Shown: positions 809-9,913 of the stretch, in pieces
How positions within the stretch are numbered: the first letter of the stretch is position 1
Layout of the letters: each line of letters opens with the position of its first letter
Source of the DNA: Rhodohalobacter sp. SW132
Lineage (GTDB): Bacteria; Bacteroidota; Rhodothermia; Balneolales; Balneolaceae
Reading direction: 5' to 3'
DNA: 64,000 nt
NCBI RefSeq assembly: GCF_003390325.1
Contig: NZ_QUOK01000004.1
Location: forward strand, 1 to 64,000
The notes under the pieces: model-generated
Seen by the model: the letters and a program-made list of their open reading frames with translations, nothing else
What the model was told of the DNA's origin: nothing
The model's database searches: none
Translations under genes and position numbers: made by a program

Positions 809-896
809 AAATGACCAGCGGCTCAAACGGACGAGTTTATGTTTCTGATCTTTGGATAGTTGTTCGTTTAGCCGTTTAGCCGCCAAGCCGTTATTT
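809..896 (+). other. attC site 1
   Basis: R'' AAATGAC at 809-815 and R' GTTATTT at 890-896 are reverse complements apart from one base. The stem pairs GCGGCTCAAACGG (818-830) with CCGTTTAGCCGC (872-883), leaving C824 unpaired. On the bottom strand this is an extrahelical G, the hallmark used by integron integrases. The site is 88 bp long. Confidence 0.75.
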
Positions 897-998: not shown

Positions 999-1316
999 AT
1001 GGAATTCTTTGAAACACCCGTTTTCACAAGGCTGATTCAGAAGCTGATCAACGATGAAGAATATCACCTGCTCCAATTGCAGTTGTCGGTCCGGCCAGAG
1101 TCCGGCGATATTATAAAAGGAAGCGGTGGAATTCGTAAACTTAGATGGGCCGGATCAGGACGTGGAAAACGCGGTGGCATTCGGGTGATTTATTATTACT
1201 TCACTGAGGATGAACAAATTTATATGCTTTATGCGTATCCAAAGAGCAAAAAAGACGATCTCACTGCAGATCAATTGAAGCAATTGAAACAACTGGTTGA
1301 GGAACAACTGCCATGA
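999..1316 (+). CDS. RelE/HigB-2-like toxin of a type II toxin-antitoxin cassette
   Basis: 105 residues. The segment 'GGIRKLRWAGSGRGKRGG' followed by 'IRVIYYYF' and a late 'LYAYPKSKKDDL' is the core of RelE/HigB-type ribosome-dependent mRNA interferases; the basic loop residues would contact RNA. The toxin comes first and its ATGA overlaps the antitoxin start by 4 bp, the order seen in higB-2/higA-2 type modules. Such modules are frequent in large integrons, where they are thought to stabilise the array by killing cells that lose it. Sequence and partner agree, so the class is secure. Whether the toxin is still active cannot be judged from sequence. Confidence 0.88.
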   Translation: MEFFETPVFTRLIQKLINDEEYHLLQLQLSVRPESGDIIKGSGGIRKLRWAGSGRGKRGGIRVIYYYFTEDEQIYMLYAYPKSKKDDLTADQLKQLKQLVEEQLP

Positions 1317-1600
1317 ATGATGAAATGTTTAATGAATTACTCGAAAGCGTCAAACAAGCCGGTGATATTCGGAAAGGCAAACGCAAACCATCCAGACACA
1401 CTGTGATTGAAGAACCTGATGTTGCAGCGATTCGCGAAAAGTACGACATGACCCAACAGGAATTTTCTTCCCTGCTTGGTATCAGTGTTGGTACCCTTCG
1501 AAACTGGGAACAAGGAAGGCGTAAACCTCAGGGGCCGGCCAAAGTACTTTTGAAAATTGCGGAAAAGAGGCCGAAAGCAATTTTGGAGTCTTTATCGTAA
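1313..1600 (+). CDS. HTH (Xre-family) antitoxin, HigA-2/NadS-like
   Basis: 95 residues. The N-terminal half (about 1-45) is the presumed toxin-binding part. Residues about 45-80 form a helix-turn-helix: 'REKYDMTQQEFSSLLGIS' then 'VGTLRNWEQGRRKPQGPA', the standard lambda-repressor-like pattern with the WEQGRRKP end. The start overlaps the toxin stop (ATGA), so the pair is translationally coupled. As in other HigA-type pairs it should neutralise the toxin and repress the common promoter, which must lie between attC site 1 and 999. The stop TAA at 1598-1600 is followed 10 bp later by attC site 2, so the pair fills one cassette of about 0.8 kb. Confidence 0.9.
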   Translation: MNDEMFNELLESVKQAGDIRKGKRKPSRHTVIEEPDVAAIREKYDMTQQEFSSLLGISVGTLRNWEQGRRKPQGPAKVLLKIAEKRPKAILESLS

Positions 1601-1610
1601 ACTGTTCGTC

Positions 1611-1698
1611 AAATAACCAGCGGTTCGTGTGGATTCGTTTTGACTTAGGGACATTGGATCATTTATCGCCTCACCGCACAACCGCCAAACCGTTAGGT
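1611..1698 (+). other. attC site 2
   Basis: R'' AAATAAC at 1611-1617 and R' GTTAGGT at 1692-1698. The stem pairs GCGGTTCGTGTGG (1620-1632) with CCGCACAACCGC (1674-1685), with one mismatch and C1626 unpaired. The unpaired C lies 15 bases after the start of R'', exactly as in site 1, and the total length (88 bp) is also identical. Confidence 0.8.
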
Positions 1699-1729: not shown

Positions 1730-2161
1730 ATGTTTATAGATTCTGAATTGTATTTAATCTTGGGACTTGCAATAATTCTAGTCTTAATTTTCACTATCGG
1801 CTTCAAGTTTTGGGAGGGCGAAAAACAAGATGAATTAGATAAAGCAATTTCACTGCTAAAAATTAATATTTTCGGAGTAGGTTTTCTATCAATAGTCTTA
1901 TGGTTTATGCTTCCTATAACTTCAACACTTAGTACGTTTGGGTTTCCTGAAACTATCAATGAGATACAATCAAATGAGCAATTACTTGATTATTTACAGA
2001 AATATAATAAAGCAATTGTACGCACAACTGAAATAGTTCATTGGTTTATTTTCATCTTTGTTTGGGGATTTTTAACATCACTTTACTCTATCATAAAAAC
2101 ATTCAAAAGTTTACGTGAAGAGCATTATTCTAAAAATGTGGAGGATAAGTTTAACACCTAA
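1730..2161 (+). CDS. small integral membrane protein, unknown function (cassette gene)
   Basis: 143 residues, unrecognised. Three hydrophobic segments are visible: about 8-26 (LILGLAIILVLIFTIGF), about 48-68 (IFGVGFLSIVLWFMLPI) and about 103-123 (VHWFIFIFVWGFLTSLY). Short charged loops separate them and a polar tail (KSLREEHYSKNVEDK) ends the protein. The coding sequence is clearly AT-richer than the housekeeping genes of the window, which fits foreign cargo. The stop TAA (2159-2161) lies inside the R'' box of attC site 3, so the gene ends exactly where its recombination site begins, as in typical integron cassettes. The start ATG follows attC site 2 by about 30 bp of AT-rich sequence that could hold its own promoter. 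Confidence 0.75.
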   Translation: MFIDSELYLILGLAIILVLIFTIGFKFWEGEKQDELDKAISLLKINIFGVGFLSIVLWFMLPITSTLSTFGFPETINEIQSNEQLLDYLQKYNKAIVRTTEIVHWFIFIFVWGFLTSLYSIIKTFKSLREEHYSKNVEDKFNT

Positions 2162-2245
2162 CAAAGTGGCTAAAGCGGACGAGTTTGCGATTTGGACCTG
2201 TATTAAATTATAATGCCTCGCCGCTAATTTACCAGACCGTTATTT
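2156..2245 (+). other. attC site 3
   Basis: R'' ACCTAAC at 2156-2162 contains the stop of the preceding gene; R' GTTATTT is at 2239-2245. The arm TGG-C-TAAA (2167-2174) pairs with TTTACCA (2228-2234), leaving C2170 extrahelical. The flanking GCGGACGAG closely resembles site 1. The site is 90 bp long and looks intact. Confidence 0.85.
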
Positions 2246-2290
2246 TCTCTGATTGAACATATTCATCAATCTCATTATAAAAACGTAACT

Positions 2291-3484
2291 ATGATTCATC
2301 ATCGATCAAATAATACGATACGATTTGTACTGGGAATGATATTTTTAACAATGTTAACCTCCGAAGGTTTTTCGCAGGGGTTTACTTCGCCTATTCAATG
2401 GCATCATTCGATCCACGAAGCACGTGTATCTGCTTTAGGCCAGTCTACAGCTGCTCTCAACAACGGAACTTCTTACCATGCGAACCCTGCTATTCCATTA
2501 GAAAATGGGGTTTTGAGTTTGTCAAGCTTTCTTTTTTCCGTTACAGCTTTTGATTCACCTACTGACGGAGCCAATTTATATAGTCCGGCTGTAAGTTTTG
2601 CACACGGAAACTTTTCATACTCTGCAATGATTGATTATACATCGTATTCCATCCCTCCAATAGACTCCGAATCCGGCAATTTAGACTTTAGCAACAGGTT
2701 GTTTCGCTTTCAAACAGGTTACCAGCTTAATGAAAACTTTTCCATAGGAATTGGATTTCTTTACAGTTCTTATCAATCAACAGAATTTAGTTTTAATAAT
2801 GAAACTCATGGGGGTGATGCTTCTGCATGGGGAATCACAGCTGGCGCCCATTATCAAAATCAGTTCGAATCCGATAATTTTGTTTTTAGATCACAGACAG
2901 GTTTGTCTCTCAATGATATAAGTGAGGGATTTAGTTTTGAAAGCACTGATATGAATGAAACGAATCTACCCGGTCAAATCAGATTAGGATTGGGATTGGA
3001 CATCTCAAGCAAAAATTTACGACATAACCGTCCTCTGTTTGGAGGTGGAATATATACCGGATTCAGTAAATATCTTGCAAGATGGGAATTTAATGATAAC
3101 CCTTCTCAGGTATCAACCCCAAGCGGTTTTGAAGCTCTGTTTACTACCTGGAATAGTTTTGAAAGATTTACCGGCTCTGAAATAGCAGAGATATCATTGG
3201 GTGAACAAATTTCTACAAGTATCGGCTTTGAACTTCATTACCTGGAAACCATTTATCTGAGATATGGAATCGTAGGTGGTTCAGATTACTGGATTAGGCC
3301 ACAAAATGGTTTAGGTGCAGAAATAGATCTTTACTATATATCACTGGCAGTTACTCACTTGAACTATCATTCGTCCGACCACTGGGGTCCTCGAGATAAT
3401 TCTGCTTATGTTCAAGCGACTTTTCGATTACCCATTGATGGTCAGTCAAGAGACACATTATTGGGCAGATTGTTCAATCGATAA
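2291..3484 (+). CDS. outer-membrane beta-barrel protein (PorV/UPF0164-like), cassette gene
   Basis: 397 residues with an N-terminal signal peptide (hydrophobic core FVLGMIFLTMLTSEGF, cleavage probably after FSQ). The segment 'ARVSALGQSTAALNNGTSY' followed by 'HANPA' matches the start of the PorV/UPF0164 family of outer-membrane barrels, in which this loop precedes the first strands. The rest alternates Gly/aromatic beta-strands, for example 'GIGFLYSSYQS' and 'IRLGLGLDIS', and ends with a strand-like VQATFRLPI. A T9SS shuttle role like PorV is possible, but so is a plain porin-like barrel. At about 1.3 kb with its site it is large for an integron cassette. Its stop codon overlaps the R'' box of the degraded attC site 4. 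Confidence 0.7.
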   Translation: MIHHRSNNTIRFVLGMIFLTMLTSEGFSQGFTSPIQWHHSIHEARVSALGQSTAALNNGTSYHANPAIPLENGVLSLSSFLFSVTAFDSPTDGANLYSPAVSFAHGNFSYSAMIDYTSYSIPPIDSESGNLDFSNRLFRFQTGYQLNENFSIGIGFLYSSYQSTEFSFNNETHGGDASAWGITAGAHYQNQFESDNFVFRSQTGLSLNDISEGFSFESTDMNETNLPGQIRLGLGLDISSKNLRHNRPLFGGGIYTGFSKYLARWEFNDNPSQVSTPSGFEALFTTWNSFERFTGSEIAEISLGEQISTSIGFELHYLETIYLRYGIVGGSDYWIRPQNGLGAEIDLYYISLAVTHLNYHSSDHWGPRDNSAYVQATFRLPIDGQSRDTLLGRLFNR

Positions 3485-3552
3485 CTCTTGTTTGCTGTAA
3501 ATCAGATTTTCAAATGTGAGCCTACAGAAAAATAACCGCCACACCGTAATAT
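3479..3552 (+). other. decayed attC site 4
   Basis: CGATAAC (3479-3485) overlaps the stop of the preceding gene, as in site 3. The downstream end AACCGCCACACCGTAATAT (from 3534) closely resembles AACCGCCAAACCGTTAGGT of site 2, but the invariant GTT has become GTA. The internal stem is poorly conserved, so the site is probably inactive. Confidence 0.45.
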
Positions 3553-3629
3553 CGCTTTTTCAAAATTAAATCGTTATCCAATAGGTGTAATGCTTTGATG
3601 AAGTGTATACATCAATAAAAGAGATAAAG

Positions 3630-4133
3630 ATGCAATTGAGTTCAACATATGGCTTCTCCCTGCTGATAGCTTGCTTAATGCTATCGATATTTCAGTCTGG
3701 TTGCGATTTACTAAGCCAAAACTCAAATGATTTTCAAAATCTTATCATTCAAACCGAGAAGGAAACGTATTCTAAAGAAGAGAACGAGCTTATTACTGCA
3801 AATATACTTAATGAGTCGGCTGAAGCAGTATTTATTACAATGCCGGGCCCTGTAACACTTGATAAAAAAATCGACGGGAAATGGGAGAACTTAGGCAGGT
3901 GGTATATTACAGCTGCAATTGCCCCACGCCTTGTTGAAATAGCACCGGAGGAATTTTTATCTGAAATCGCAAAACTAAATACTGACGATCCGATCATTGA
4001 GGAAACTGGTTTATATCGTTTTCATTTCAGCATGTATTCATCAAAATTTGATATGGCAGGCGGAGAAAATGGCTCAAAATCCATATTACCGTTGAAATTC
4101 CGCATATCAAATACATTCTATATTTCCGATTGA
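3630..4133 (+). CDS. lipoprotein with Ig-like fold, unknown function (cassette gene)
   Basis: 167 residues from the ATG at 3630, which is preceded by GAGATAAAG. A GTG nine codons earlier (3603) is possible but would put a polar stretch before the signal peptide. A hydrophobic segment (LLIACLMLSIFQ) leads to SGC, a lipobox-like cysteine, so the protein should be anchored in the envelope. The mature part starts with a Ser/Asn-rich linker. It then has the alternating beta pattern of a small Ig-like domain: 'IQTEKETYSKEENELITANI', then 'WENLGRWYI', then 'TGLYRFHFSMYSS'. No catalytic residues are recognisable. It fills one cassette between attC sites 4 and 5. Confidence 0.7.
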   Translation: MQLSSTYGFSLLIACLMLSIFQSGCDLLSQNSNDFQNLIIQTEKETYSKEENELITANILNESAEAVFITMPGPVTLDKKIDGKWENLGRWYITAAIAPRLVEIAPEEFLSEIAKLNTDDPIIEETGLYRFHFSMYSSKFDMAGGENGSKSILPLKFRISNTFYISD

Positions 4134-4155
4134 TTATAGGTATTGCTGATAATTC

Positions 4156-4268
4156 CTATAACAAAGCATCTGTTTATGATATAACCAATGCTTCCTGCGA
4201 ATCGGTTCAGGTTTCTTGCTAAACTTTTAAACCAGTCGCCCGGCCGCAGAAGCACCAAACCGTTATAG
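4156..4268 (+). other. attC site 5
   Basis: R'' CTATAAC (4156-4162) and R' GTTATAG (4262-4268) are perfect reverse complements. The inner arms GCATCTG and CAGAAGC pair apart from one base. At 113 bp it is longer than sites 1-3, with a longer loop. Confidence 0.75.
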
Positions 4269-4625: not shown

Positions 4626-4697
4626 ATATTGCACCGGCACTATATCAATGTGCATTAACTGGGAATGCTAATGTGCCGCTGGCTTCCGGTGTTATTT
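4624..4697 (+). other. decayed attC site 6
   Basis: A canonical R' GTTATTT lies at 4691-4697. The upstream box AAATATT (4624-4630) overlaps the end of the preceding gene and has lost the AAC. The outer arm CCGGCAC pairs only partly with GTGCCG and CCGGTG near the downstream end. Probably an attC with an eroded left half. Confidence 0.45.
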
Positions 4698-4807
4698 GTC
4701 ATGAATTTTTAGCCGTTTATTAACCCATAATCTCCGCGCCCGATCTGCGCTGAGCCGTTTTGAGAGACTTGCTAAACGTTTACAGCGTTTGTATTATATG
4801 AGTAATA

Positions 4808-5517: not shown

Positions 5518-5642
5518 ACATAACAACGTCTCTTGCGGACGGGGCTGCACATGATGGATTTCCGGTGTTTCTGAACTGGTTAGGTTTTACTACTTTGCAA
5601 AGTGGCAGAACGCACCGTCGCATAACTGCCAAACCGTTATAT
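5518..5642 (+). other. attC site 7 (last convincing site)
   Basis: R'' ACATAAC (5518-5524) and R' GTTATAT (5636-5642). The arm TGCGGACGG (5534-5542) pairs with CCGTCGCA (5615-5622), leaving one G unpaired. The end GCCAAACCGTTATATGGC closely matches the end of site 2. The site is 125 bp long. Confidence 0.75.
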
Positions 5643-5776: not shown

Positions 5777-7108
5777 ATGACAACTAAAAGCCTTTTTCTC
5801 TCCCTGCTCTTTCTGGTTCTCGCTTTACTCCCTCTTCAAACAGTTGGCCAAACCTACAACTGGCATTCACTTGAATCTGAAGGAAATGCTACCGAACGCC
5901 ATGAAAATGCTCTTGTTCGAGCCGGTAATAAATTCATTTTACTTGGGGGGCGCGGAATGAAGCCAATTGACATTTACGATACCCAAACCCAGGAATGGAC
6001 CGAAGGTGCTCAGCCACCGTTTGAAATTCATCACATCCAGGCAGTAGAGTTAGAAGGACTCGTCTATGTTGTTGGAGCGATGAGTGGCGGATGGCCGTAT
6101 GAAACATCACTTTCACATATTCTCATTTATGATCCTGTTTTAGATAAATGGGCCATCGGACCAGAAATACCGGAAGATCGCAGACGGGGGGCTGCTGGAA
6201 CCGTTGTGTACGATGGAAAGATTTATGTCGTTTGCGGAATTATCAACGGCCATACTTCGGGATGGGTGAGTTGGCTGGATGAATTTGATCCAAAAACGAA
6301 TGAGTGGCGAACATTGCCAAATGCACCGAGATCAAGAGATCACCTTCACGCCGCCGTTGTTGATGATAAACTGGTCGTTGCCGGTGGACGACGATCCGGG
6401 TATGGCGGCGGCGGTTTTGAAACGACTGTTGCACAAACAAATGTCTTTGATTTTGATACAATGGAGTGGACTGAACTGCCCTCTCCTGAAGGTGATATCC
6501 CAACCCAGCGTGCAGGGATTGCTGCAACCGTCCATCAGGGAAATGTCGCCATAATTGGCGGTGAAAGCGGCAGCCAGGAAACAGCACACAGTGAAGTGGA
6601 GATGCTGGTTCTTTCAACTGGAAGCTGGGAATCCCTCCCCTCCTTAAATCGCGGACGACACGGCACTCAGGCCATCTTATTTGATGATATGATTGTGGTT
6701 GGAGCGGGAAGCGGAAATCGAGGCGGCGGACCTGAACTGAATTCATTTGAAATCTTTTCATCTGAAGAGAATCCTGAATTCCCCGATACACCCCTCACCA
6801 AAGCAGAACTTACCACATCAACCGAAGAAATTATTTTTACTGATGATGATTCCAGCGACAAAGAAGTCATTCTGAGTAGTCAAAACGGAAATCAGGCCAG
6901 TTTGATCCAGTATATTCAATTGGATAACACCTCCGATTTCGCACTTAATTTACCCATTGAGTTTCCGTTTGTCCTTGCGCCGGGTCAGGAGATTCCTATT
7001 GAAATATCCCGGATCAGCACTGAGACAGGAAATCCGCAGGCAACACTTTTCATCAAACCTTTGGGAAATACTGAGCCCATCAGTGTAAGCATTCGGATTA
7101 CCGATTAA
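5777..7108 (+). CDS. secreted Kelch-repeat beta-propeller protein
   Basis: 443 residues. A clear signal peptide (LFLSLLFLVLALLPLQTVGQ) is followed by about five to six Kelch blades: each has a GG pair, then a Tyr or Phe, then a Trp at the usual spacing. Examples are 'NKFILLGGRGMKPIDIYD..TQEWTEG', 'GKIYVVCGI..EFDPKTNEWRTLP', 'DKLVVAGGRRSG..DTMEWTELP' and 'GNVAIIGGESGS'. After about residue 335 the C-terminal 100 residues change to a beta-sandwich-like region with no T9SS-type tail. Kelch propellers of this kind bind ligands or sugars; the substrate is unknown. No attC site follows it, so it is probably outside the integron array, although it directly follows attC site 7. Confidence 0.85.
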   Translation: MTTKSLFLSLLFLVLALLPLQTVGQTYNWHSLESEGNATERHENALVRAGNKFILLGGRGMKPIDIYDTQTQEWTEGAQPPFEIHHIQAVELEGLVYVVGAMSGGWPYETSLSHILIYDPVLDKWAIGPEIPEDRRRGAAGTVVYDGKIYVVCGIINGHTSGWVSWLDEFDPKTNEWRTLPNAPRSRDHLHAAVVDDKLVVAGGRRSGYGGGGFETTVAQTNVFDFDTMEWTELPSPEGDIPTQRAGIAATVHQGNVAIIGGESGSQETAHSEVEMLVLSTGSWESLPSLNRGRHGTQAILFDDMIVVGAGSGNRGGGPELNSFEIFSSEENPEFPDTPLTKAELTTSTEEIIFTDDDSSDKEVILSSQNGNQASLIQYIQLDNTSDFALNLPIEFPFVLAPGQEIPIEISRISTETGNPQATLFIKPLGNTEPISVSIRITD

Positions 7109-7995: not shown

Positions 7996-8157
7996 AACGG
8001 AACTTTTTTTGCAAATTCATCCAATACATACCTGATACGAATATAAAAATGCCTTTGATGATTTTTGCTCGCATTGAAACACCCCTTCACATTCTGACGA
8101 TACTGAAGATCGGAATGCATGTATTTTATTATCAATAAGAGCAACTATGGTAATGCC

Positions 8158-8272: not shown

Positions 8273-9913
8273 ATGAAAGCATCCGACCTGTTTGTTAAAG
8301 CCCTTGAAAATGAAGGTGTTGAATATATTTTTGCCGTTCCCGGCGAAGAAAATGTGGATCTGCTGAACTCACTGAAAGATTCTACGATAAAATTCATTGT
8401 AACACGCCACGAGCAGGGCGCTGGTTTTATGGCGGCAACGTATGGCAGGCTGACCGGCAAACCGGGAGTCTGTATGGGAACGCTCGGGCCGGGAGCTACC
8501 AACCTGGTTACTCCCGCAGCCTATGCCCAGCTGGGTGCCATGCCCATGATGATAATTACCGGCCAAAAGCCTATAAAAACCAGTAAACAGGCCCGTTTCC
8601 AAATTCTGGATGTGGTAAATATGCTACAGCCGGTCACGAAATTCACCAAACAGATTGTGAACGGAAACACCATCCCATCACTGGTACGTGAGAGTTTTCG
8701 GCTTGCAACAGAAGAGAGACCCGGGACGGTACACCTGGAACTGCCCGAAGATATTGCCCGTGAAGACACAGACAGCCATTTGTTTGAAGTGGTGGGCCAT
8801 CGGCGTCCGGATGCTGATGAAACTGCAATCAGGGAAGCTGTTAAAATGATAGAAAATGCTAAAATGCCGCTGCTTATGATTGGTGCAGGTGCCAATCGTA
8901 AGGAGACACGGGAGGCATTAACAGAATTCATTGACAGCACTGGTATCTTCTTTTTTTGTACCCAAATGGGAAAAGGGGTGATCGATGAGCGACACCCGCA
9001 ATACCTGGGTACGGCAGCACTTTCCGATGATGACTTTGTTCACCGCGCGATTGATGAAGCCGACCTGGTTATAAATGTAGGTCATGATACAGTAGAAAAA
9101 CCACCCTTTTTTATGCAAGAGAGTGGGAAAAAAGTAATCCATCTGAATTTTTTCCCCGCTGAGGTGGACGCCGTCTATTTCCCGCAGCTCAACGTTGTGG
9201 GTGATATCAGGACCTCTATTGAGCATATATGCCGTCATATTAACGAGGAGATCGAATGGGATTCCGGTTTTTTCCAGCAGATCAAGGAAGATGTTGACTC
9301 CCACCTGAGTAAGTATTTCAACGATACGCGCTTCCCGATGCTGCCTCAGCGGCTGGTCAGTATTATGCGGGACACACTTGCCGATGACGATATCATCACT
9401 CTTGATAACGGGATGTATAAAATCTGGTTTGCCCGGAACTACAAATGTTATGCGCCAAACACCCTTTTACTCGATAACGCACTGGCCAGTATGGGGGCCG
9501 GTCTGCCCTCAGCCATGCTAACAAAACTAATCAATCCCGATAAAAAAGTAGTTGCAGTCTGTGGCGACGGCGGATTTATGATGAATTCACAAGAACTGGA
9601 AACCGCTGTTCGAAACAACCTGGACCTGGTAGTGATCATTGTGAACGACAGTGCCTACGGCATGATCAAATGGAAACAGGAAGATATGGACTTCGACAAT
9701 TTTGGCCTCGATTTCAACAACCCCGATTTTGTATCCTACGCCAATAGTTACGGGGCTACAGGGCACCGGCCCGAAAGTGATGCCGAGTTCCGTGAGACCC
9801 TCAATGACTGCATGAATTCCAAGGGTGTGCACCTGATTGACTTACAGATCGATTACTCATTAAATCACTCTATTCTGAATGTGTTGATCAAAGAGAAAAC
9901 GCAAAATTTATAA
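8273..9913 (+). CDS. alsS: acetolactate synthase-like ThDP enzyme (AlsS type)
   Basis: 546 residues in the three-domain order of ThDP-dependent carboligases. The N-terminal domain carries the catalytic Glu47 in 'TRHEQGAGFMAATYGRLTGK'. The central domain includes 'LLMIGAGANRKETREAL'. The C-terminal cofactor domain has GDGGFMMNSQELETAV at about 430 and 'IIVNDSAYGMIKWKQ' about 25 residues later. Asp follows Asn there (ND rather than NN), as in catabolic AlsS. These enzymes join two pyruvates to 2-acetolactate in the cytoplasm. No regulatory small subunit, ilvC or alsD is nearby, which favours the catabolic type or a relative with another substrate. It stands alone between two copies of a 31-bp hairpin, has no obvious Shine-Dalgarno, and converges on leuS. 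Confidence 0.8.
   Translation: MKASDLFVKALENEGVEYIFAVPGEENVDLLNSLKDSTIKFIVTRHEQGAGFMAATYGRLTGKPGVCMGTLGPGATNLVTPAAYAQLGAMPMMIITGQKPIKTSKQARFQILDVVNMLQPVTKFTKQIVNGNTIPSLVRESFRLATEERPGTVHLELPEDIAREDTDSHLFEVVGHRRPDADETAIREAVKMIENAKMPLLMIGAGANRKETREALTEFIDSTGIFFFCTQMGKGVIDERHPQYLGTAALSDDDFVHRAIDEADLVINVGHDTVEKPPFFMQESGKKVIHLNFFPAEVDAVYFPQLNVVGDIRTSIEHICRHINEEIEWDSGFFQQIKEDVDSHLSKYFNDTRFPMLPQRLVSIMRDTLADDDIITLDNGMYKIWFARNYKCYAPNTLLLDNALASMGAGLPSAMLTKLINPDKKVVAVCGDGGFMMNSQELETAVRNNLDLVVIIVNDSAYGMIKWKQEDMDFDNFGLDFNNPDFVSYANSYGATGHRPESDAEFRETLNDCMNSKGVHLIDLQIDYSLNHSILNVLIKEKTQNL

Follow-up and report, generated by a model that had tools for sequence, protein, structure and literature searches.

Studies of integrons have already reported an outer-membrane protein carried as a cassette: one is included among the cassettes in a figure legend that deals with Dechloromonas aromatica (PMC2426708, as far as that legend goes). 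In Vibrio rotiferianus, deletion of cassettes changes the cell surface, with effects on polysaccharide and porin expression (PMC3590141, in the part covered). Excerpts from two other articles give signal peptides for 11.6% of Xanthomonas cassette proteins (PMC12444791) and suggest roles for cassettes in cell interaction (PMC10963911). The portions of PMC8876359 and PMC7923331 that we covered contain nothing on outer-membrane barrel cassettes. Within the small part of the integron literature considered here we found no account of a PorV-type barrel cassette, and an earlier report is possible.

Here we analyse the start of contig C4 (NZ_QUOK01000004.1) of Rhodohalobacter sp. SW132, a member of the Balneolaceae whose genome assembly comprises 45 contigs. 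The window, meaning the whole stretch of DNA that was analysed, is the first 64 kb of this contig. Near its beginning lies a gene for a probable outer-membrane barrel. With a probability of about 0.8, we interpret it as a mobile cassette of a Balneolaceae chromosomal integron that reached a second genus and later lost the middle of its own attC by deletion, and that encodes an accessory barrel of the PorV/FadL superfamily.

A cassette array at the start of the contig

A hand-made attC scanner proved unspecific and was replaced by covariance models. Model R1 was trained on four attC sites of the window and one from a genome of another genus (G085). Model R2 was built without any window site, from 109 sites found by R1 at E 1 or better in 25 sources, drawn from relatives and from contig C15 of the same genome. 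R2 lists 149 sites up to E 0.5 in the 25 sources, 19 of which contribute, and by eye the strand of every listed site agrees with that predicted from the position of the integrase. In the five-row alignment, the attC stem has 19 pairs, seven of which change on both sides, and 87.4% of cells pair, against at most 50% when the stem is slid; this covariation is support and not proof, since the stem was drawn from the same five rows that were counted. Folded singly, the bottom strands of two of the five training sites reach z of about -2, and the other three are not set apart from shuffles.

In the window, R2 lists six sites and nothing else in 64 kb up to E 10 (Table 1). All are on one strand and restricted to the first 5.7 kb, where the G+C content of the whole array is 39.5%. 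This segment is an integron cassette array. Its toxin–antitoxin cassette recurs, borders included, between two attC sites of an array in a genome of G085's genus (G062, L118:6622-7220), with protein identities of 94.5% (91 aa) and 94.7% (95 aa). The final attC of the array is followed by a gene for a Kelch-repeat protein (window 5777-7108) whose G+C content, near 48% in the kilobase from 6001, exceeds that of the array; it is perhaps a cassette without attC, perhaps the first host gene. Also beside the array, at 8273-9913, is a gene that by eye resembles those of thiamine-pyrophosphate enzymes. It occurs in three of 142 genomes, its own included (E 1e-150), and lies elsewhere in the same-genus genome G003.

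Table 1. Features of the barrel cassette and its surroundings (window positions unless a locus is named)
Feature	Position	Strand	Details
attC	809..896	+	54.6 bits (R2)
RelE-type toxin and HTH antitoxin cassette	999..1600	+	Pfam RelE 38.3 bits, HTH_3 41.1 bits
attC	1611..1698	+	43.7 bits (R2)
attC of preceding cassette, 5' border of barrel cassette	2156..2245	+	76.8 bits (R1, training member); 35.8 bits (R2, independent)
Barrel cassette, 1307 bases	2240..3546	+	From cut point of preceding attC to remnant of own attC
Outer-membrane barrel ORF (probable)	2291..3484	+	397 aa, ATG start; PorV/FadL superfamily
Remnant of barrel cassette's own attC (best reading)	3530..3552	+	R'' joined to L'-R' half; middle deleted; core GTT reads GTA
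Lipoprotein-like gene (Big_14) of following cassette	3630..4133	+	Big_14 26 bits, cut-off 27
attC, next intact site 3' of barrel	4179..4268	+	35.4 bits (R2)
attC, weak, probably decayed	4640..4763	+	14.1 bits (R2); E 2.7 (64 kb), 0.017 (1.7-kb search)
attC, last detected in array	5518..5642	+	21.1 bits (R1), E 0.0029, outside training set; 17.0 bits (R2)
Barrel copy in G085	L041:5006-6196		
Complete attC at cassette end in G085	L041:4870-4957	-	86.8 bits (R1, training member); 35.9 bits (R2)

The genome encodes a full integron integrase (C15:945-1883; 433 bits, cut-off 265), on a contig other than that of the array. Beside it, where C15 begins, is an attC truncated by the end of the contig. 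We infer that the integrase and the array on C4 are one integron split in assembly, a reading that the orientation fits. Integron integrases are widespread in the group, being present in 71 of 142 genomes, this one included (E 1e-60; 69 above the cut-off). G003 resembles this genome in a gene read as udk, in the integrase, in attI and in the beginning of its first cassette; the sequences upstream of integrases that were compared are those of plus-strand integrases and of G000. An attempt to link array and integrase by synteny through G003 failed: the genes 3' of the C4 array lie elsewhere in that genome, with no attC detected there, and the best counterpart that the genome studied here has for the G003 gene next to leuS is a 33% match. 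The integrase contigs of six other genomes (G060, G024, G107, G078, G076 and G030) start roughly 300 bases 5' of the integrase gene, close to attI; incomplete assembly of arrays is therefore probable in this group.

Borders of the barrel cassette and its broken site

The reading frame, of 397 codons as in the original prediction, begins with ATG on the forward strand and is the only one in the cassette, running in the same direction as the attC. Homology with the copy in G085 starts at CGTTATTTTCTCTGA (window 2238), which in the alignment is the cut point of the preceding attC; further upstream, the two agree at only 16 of 60 bases. The 3' end common to both is CAGAAAAATAACC. There a full attC follows in G085, whereas the window continues with the second half of the site, CGCCACACCGTAATAT.

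Thus the cassette's own attC, complete in G085, is internally deleted in the window. According to the alignment, R'' (AAATAAC, 3530-3536) is fused to an L'-R' half at 3537-3552, which agrees at 11 of 13 letters with a consensus written by hand from the neighbouring sites; equally good matches occur once on the forward strand and never on the reverse strand of window positions 8001-64000. We found no fold in the remnant. The segment is best read as an attC that has lost its middle; with lower probability, R' may instead lie at 3573-3579 (6.3 bits). The original prediction placed the gene between attC site 3 and a decayed one whose R'' overlaps the stop codon; the first of these is borne out, but the decayed site was misplaced, for its R'' does not touch the stop codon and lies 45 bases past the end of the reading frame.

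Since the middle of the site is deleted and no fold remains, the barrel of the window should not excise alone. R2 detects no intact attC between it and the lipoprotein-like gene that follows. The two genes would instead move together, the attC sites 2156-2245 and 4179-4268 delimiting a stretch of about 2.0 kb (2240-4262). The window copy is thus less mobile than originally proposed, and is now probably fixed in place. It is a clear example of how an array can fix one of its cassettes.

A fixed cassette could be a passenger without function in this genome. Its attC is broken, the gene is not beside attI on the assembled contigs, and in a same-genus genome (G001) the barrel gene survives as no more than an 87-base remnant with a stop (L047:4771-4857; 69 of 87 bases identical). 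Against this, all 397 codons are open and dN/dS relative to the G085 copy is 0.19, a value indicative of purifying selection. We regard the passenger reading as unlikely, and favour a barrel that is still in use.

A second copy in another genus

The nearest copy of the barrel is in G085 (contig 286, SKRK01000011.1), with 73% amino acid identity. Barrel and attC are thus found together elsewhere, which the original prediction had proposed as a check, and the cut-point border in the window together with the complete attC in G085 bears out its claim that the barrel is integron cargo. That the cassette has moved is very probable, as it has the same borders in a second genus; lone mobility should no longer extend to the window copy, given its broken site.

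Matches to the barrel at E 0.001 occur in 90 of 146 genomes, its own included, most of them at about 30% identity over residues 141-340; these are PorV and other paralogues. Near-full-length matches of at least 36% are limited to six of 145 genomes, its own left out: besides G085, these are G097 (56%), G113 (54%), G054 (53%), G100 (41%) and G092 (36%). R2 lists no attC at the loci of the latter five. A weak attC-like match at L044 (R1, 14.4 bits) was set aside; it is about 8 kb from the barrel and R2 does not list it, scoring 6.1 bits at most near that barrel when unfiltered. The G054 homologue adjoins the end of a gene read as rpoC, and those in G097, G113, G100 and G092 are beside other genes (the names rpoC, udk, acetolactate-synthase-like and EF-G-like were read from the sequence by eye). 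A conserved position in relatives without attC, which the original prediction had named as telling against it, is therefore not seen in these five. Palindromic repeats unlike attC (GGGACTCGTGTGA...; L045:2240-2320 and 3620-3710) stand on both sides of the G100 homologue, which is followed by another gene that may, by eye, be a barrel. A tandem run of six PorV-like barrel reading frames occurs in G050 (L048:5243-12731), with no attC detected.

Such homologues without attC would be expected if this were a resident chromosomal barrel that merely stands beside attC sites and resembles the G085 copy by vertical inheritance. The gene tree also agrees with taxonomy. We had considered a conflict between the two and rejected it: the tree follows families and both copies stay within their own family, so topology alone shows no transfer. 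Vertical inheritance is nevertheless very unlikely, as the likeness to G085 ends where the cassette is cut, the homologues have differing neighbours, and synonymous divergence is too low. Third-position identity between the two barrels is 0.59 (dS 0.92), compared to 0.39-0.46 when the resident PorV is paired with that of ten genomes and 0.43-0.49 when LeuS is paired with that of three; dS in the PorV and LeuS comparisons is 1.99 or more, or not computable. G085 has no LeuS match, and other genomes of its genus were used in its place. Lower synonymous divergence than in LeuS and PorV between the same genera supports horizontal transfer, and the surface-barrel gene has probably moved between bacteria. 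Base composition is similar in the two copies (G+C 39.0% in the window, 38.9% in G085; surroundings 44.6 and 48.5%), and the low value is not peculiar to the barrel gene, since the whole array is AT-rich.

The G085 contig stops 170 bases to the left of the cassette, and this stretch contains no attC and gave no useful match. On the other side, the gene that follows the cassette was detected at E 1e-50 in 11 of the 28 genomes available for that genus, one of them G085. No empty insertion site was seen among the genomes that align to the junction, which besides G085 are represented by G058 alone. Contig 31 of G058 (L055, ending at base 8039) stops 5 bases past the position of the cassette end, as if an array or a repeat began there too.

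The two copies form a mosaic. Third positions are equal at 64 of 150 in residues 1-150, which are near synonymous saturation, and at 170 of 244 in the much closer remainder (p 1.8e-7). This patchy divergence suggests recombination inside the barrel gene. Outer-membrane barrels are common phage receptors, and a part of the protein far more diverged than the rest might be expected of a surface-variation gene that alters phage adsorption. Set against that are the absence of any relative in the viral contigs, plasmid records and phage records searched, and of any defence family for the barrel in PADLOC, whose matches were weak only and fell on the antitoxin of the neighbouring cassette. We give the phage interpretation very little credence, and retain that of a transferred accessory barrel.

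Identity of the barrel protein

The protein is a member of the PorV/FadL superfamily. Its N-terminus, judged by eye, is hydrophobic. NCBIfam PorV_fam (NF033709) matches at 54.5 bits (E 1.3e-14), missing the curated cut-off of 90, and the T9SS PorV equivalog NF033710 at 30.9 bits, where the cut-off is 250. In the Pfam scan, OMP_b-brl gave a weak match below its cut-off (18.5 versus 28.7 bits), PF19572 (T9SS PorV) and UPF0164 (PF03687) had no match up to E 1, and Toluene_X was not reported. The sub-threshold PorV_fam and OMP_b-brl matches are compatible with a barrel. Searched against the PDB, a profile built from 32 relatives retrieves PorV at E 1.8e-49, and a five-row profile does so at E 0.0054. 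Confidence in the predicted structure is low (pLDDT 55.9, pTM 0.58), and its strands are too indistinct to be counted against the 14 expected of a PorV-like barrel. Foldseek of this model places PorV chains on top (E 2.4e-10). VIA-align likewise ranks PorV chains first (Z 23.0 and 22.4), followed by BAM-complex chains of Porphyromonas and Flavobacterium (Z 20.0 and 19.6) and, further down, CymD, FadL and TodX; OmpG is at Z 16.4 to 18.7. The margin of PorV over other barrels is modest. An NPA motif at residues 65-67 presumably corresponds to the hatch motif of FadL; across 32 aligned rows, P66 and A67 never vary and N65 hardly does.

The prediction of a PorV/UPF0164-like protein thus stands as regards the PorV-like fold and superfamily; the scores are below the PorV cut-offs, and UPF0164 drops out. 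By sequence, we classify the cassette protein as a divergent PorV/FadL-type paralogue, distinct from PorV. A true PorU–PorV pair is encoded on contig C5 of the same genome, where a sorting-domain protein adjoins it.

One could picture the cassette as a mobile T9SS part, a barrel that takes secreted cargo from the translocon as PorV and PorP-like barrels do and so enlarges the surface repertoire. In favour of this are the rank of PorV as top structural match, the presence in the genome of PorU, PorV and a sorting-domain protein, and the description of PorV and PorP-like barrels as cargo carriers in the part of PMC9143113 consulted. Yet the scores are far under the PorV cut-offs, porU adjoins the resident PorV gene and not the cassette barrel, and none of three scanned cassette or neighbouring proteins of the window has a sorting-domain family. 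A role in T9SS seems quite unlikely to us. Rather, the barrel is most likely an accessory outer-membrane channel or binding barrel that would act alongside the resident PorV.

Cargo of related arrays

In 18 array loci, the 130 site-to-site intervals have a median of 795 bases; 38 exceed 1000 and 24 are at least 1307, although long intervals may hide missed attC sites. Cassettes were originally said to exceed 1 kb only rarely, which these intervals do not bear out, and the length of the barrel cassette is no oddity. The claim that barrels are uncommon as cargo fared better. Against 429 reading frames in the intervals, a profile of the barrel family gave one weak match (E 3.2e-5), to a 223-aa protein of G009 (L115:1412-2080) that scores 30.4 bits with Pfam OMP_b-brl (cut-off 28.7), and no other full-length PorV-type barrel was seen among them; the family table covers 25 of 139 families, and other barrels may be hidden. 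The G009 protein is a second, smaller barrel carried by an integron. Among the families listed, toxins are the commonest named cargo (ParE_toxin in nine and PIN in six of 130 proteins). The barrel cassette is genuine and its mechanism ordinary; its cargo is uncommon.

Discussion

We propose that the integron integrase of this lineage inserted a cassette in which a single barrel gene stood between a short leader and an attC. The same cassette would then have reached a second genus, the direction of transfer given here being presumed, and the middle of its attC would subsequently have been deleted in Rhodohalobacter sp. SW132, ending its capacity for lone excision.

Integron cassettes can accommodate a large gene for an outer-membrane barrel, here in two genera, a finding of interest for the evolution of the cell surface. 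Should the barrel act as a receptor or as a partner in secretion, integrons would offer a direct means of exchanging surface properties. A far bolder conjecture, which we consider a long shot, is that Balneolota integrons trade PorV-like barrels, each recombination step supplying a new T9SS shuttle or receptor, and that recombination within the gene, with an old 5' part and a young 3' part, shuffles the outer face.

Compared to T9SS PorV (6h3i, 8gl6), its best profile and structure match, the cassette barrel is below the family cut-offs and not beside porU. With FadL/TodX-type channels it shares the barrel fold (Z about 17 to 19.5) and the NPA motif, but only 10-14% identity. Among cassettes, that of PMC2426708 encodes an outer-membrane protein, as here, but belongs to another phylum, and the passage names no family. 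Vibrio rotiferianus cassettes affect the surface (PMC3590141, in the part covered), whereas here the cassette itself encodes the barrel. Like other chromosomal integron cassettes, this one is a single gene within an array, delimited by an attC at its 5' border and by a remnant of one at its 3' end, with an integrase in the genome and another cassette of the array shared between genera. It is set apart by its cargo, a full-length PorV-type barrel, and by the internal deletion of its own attC.
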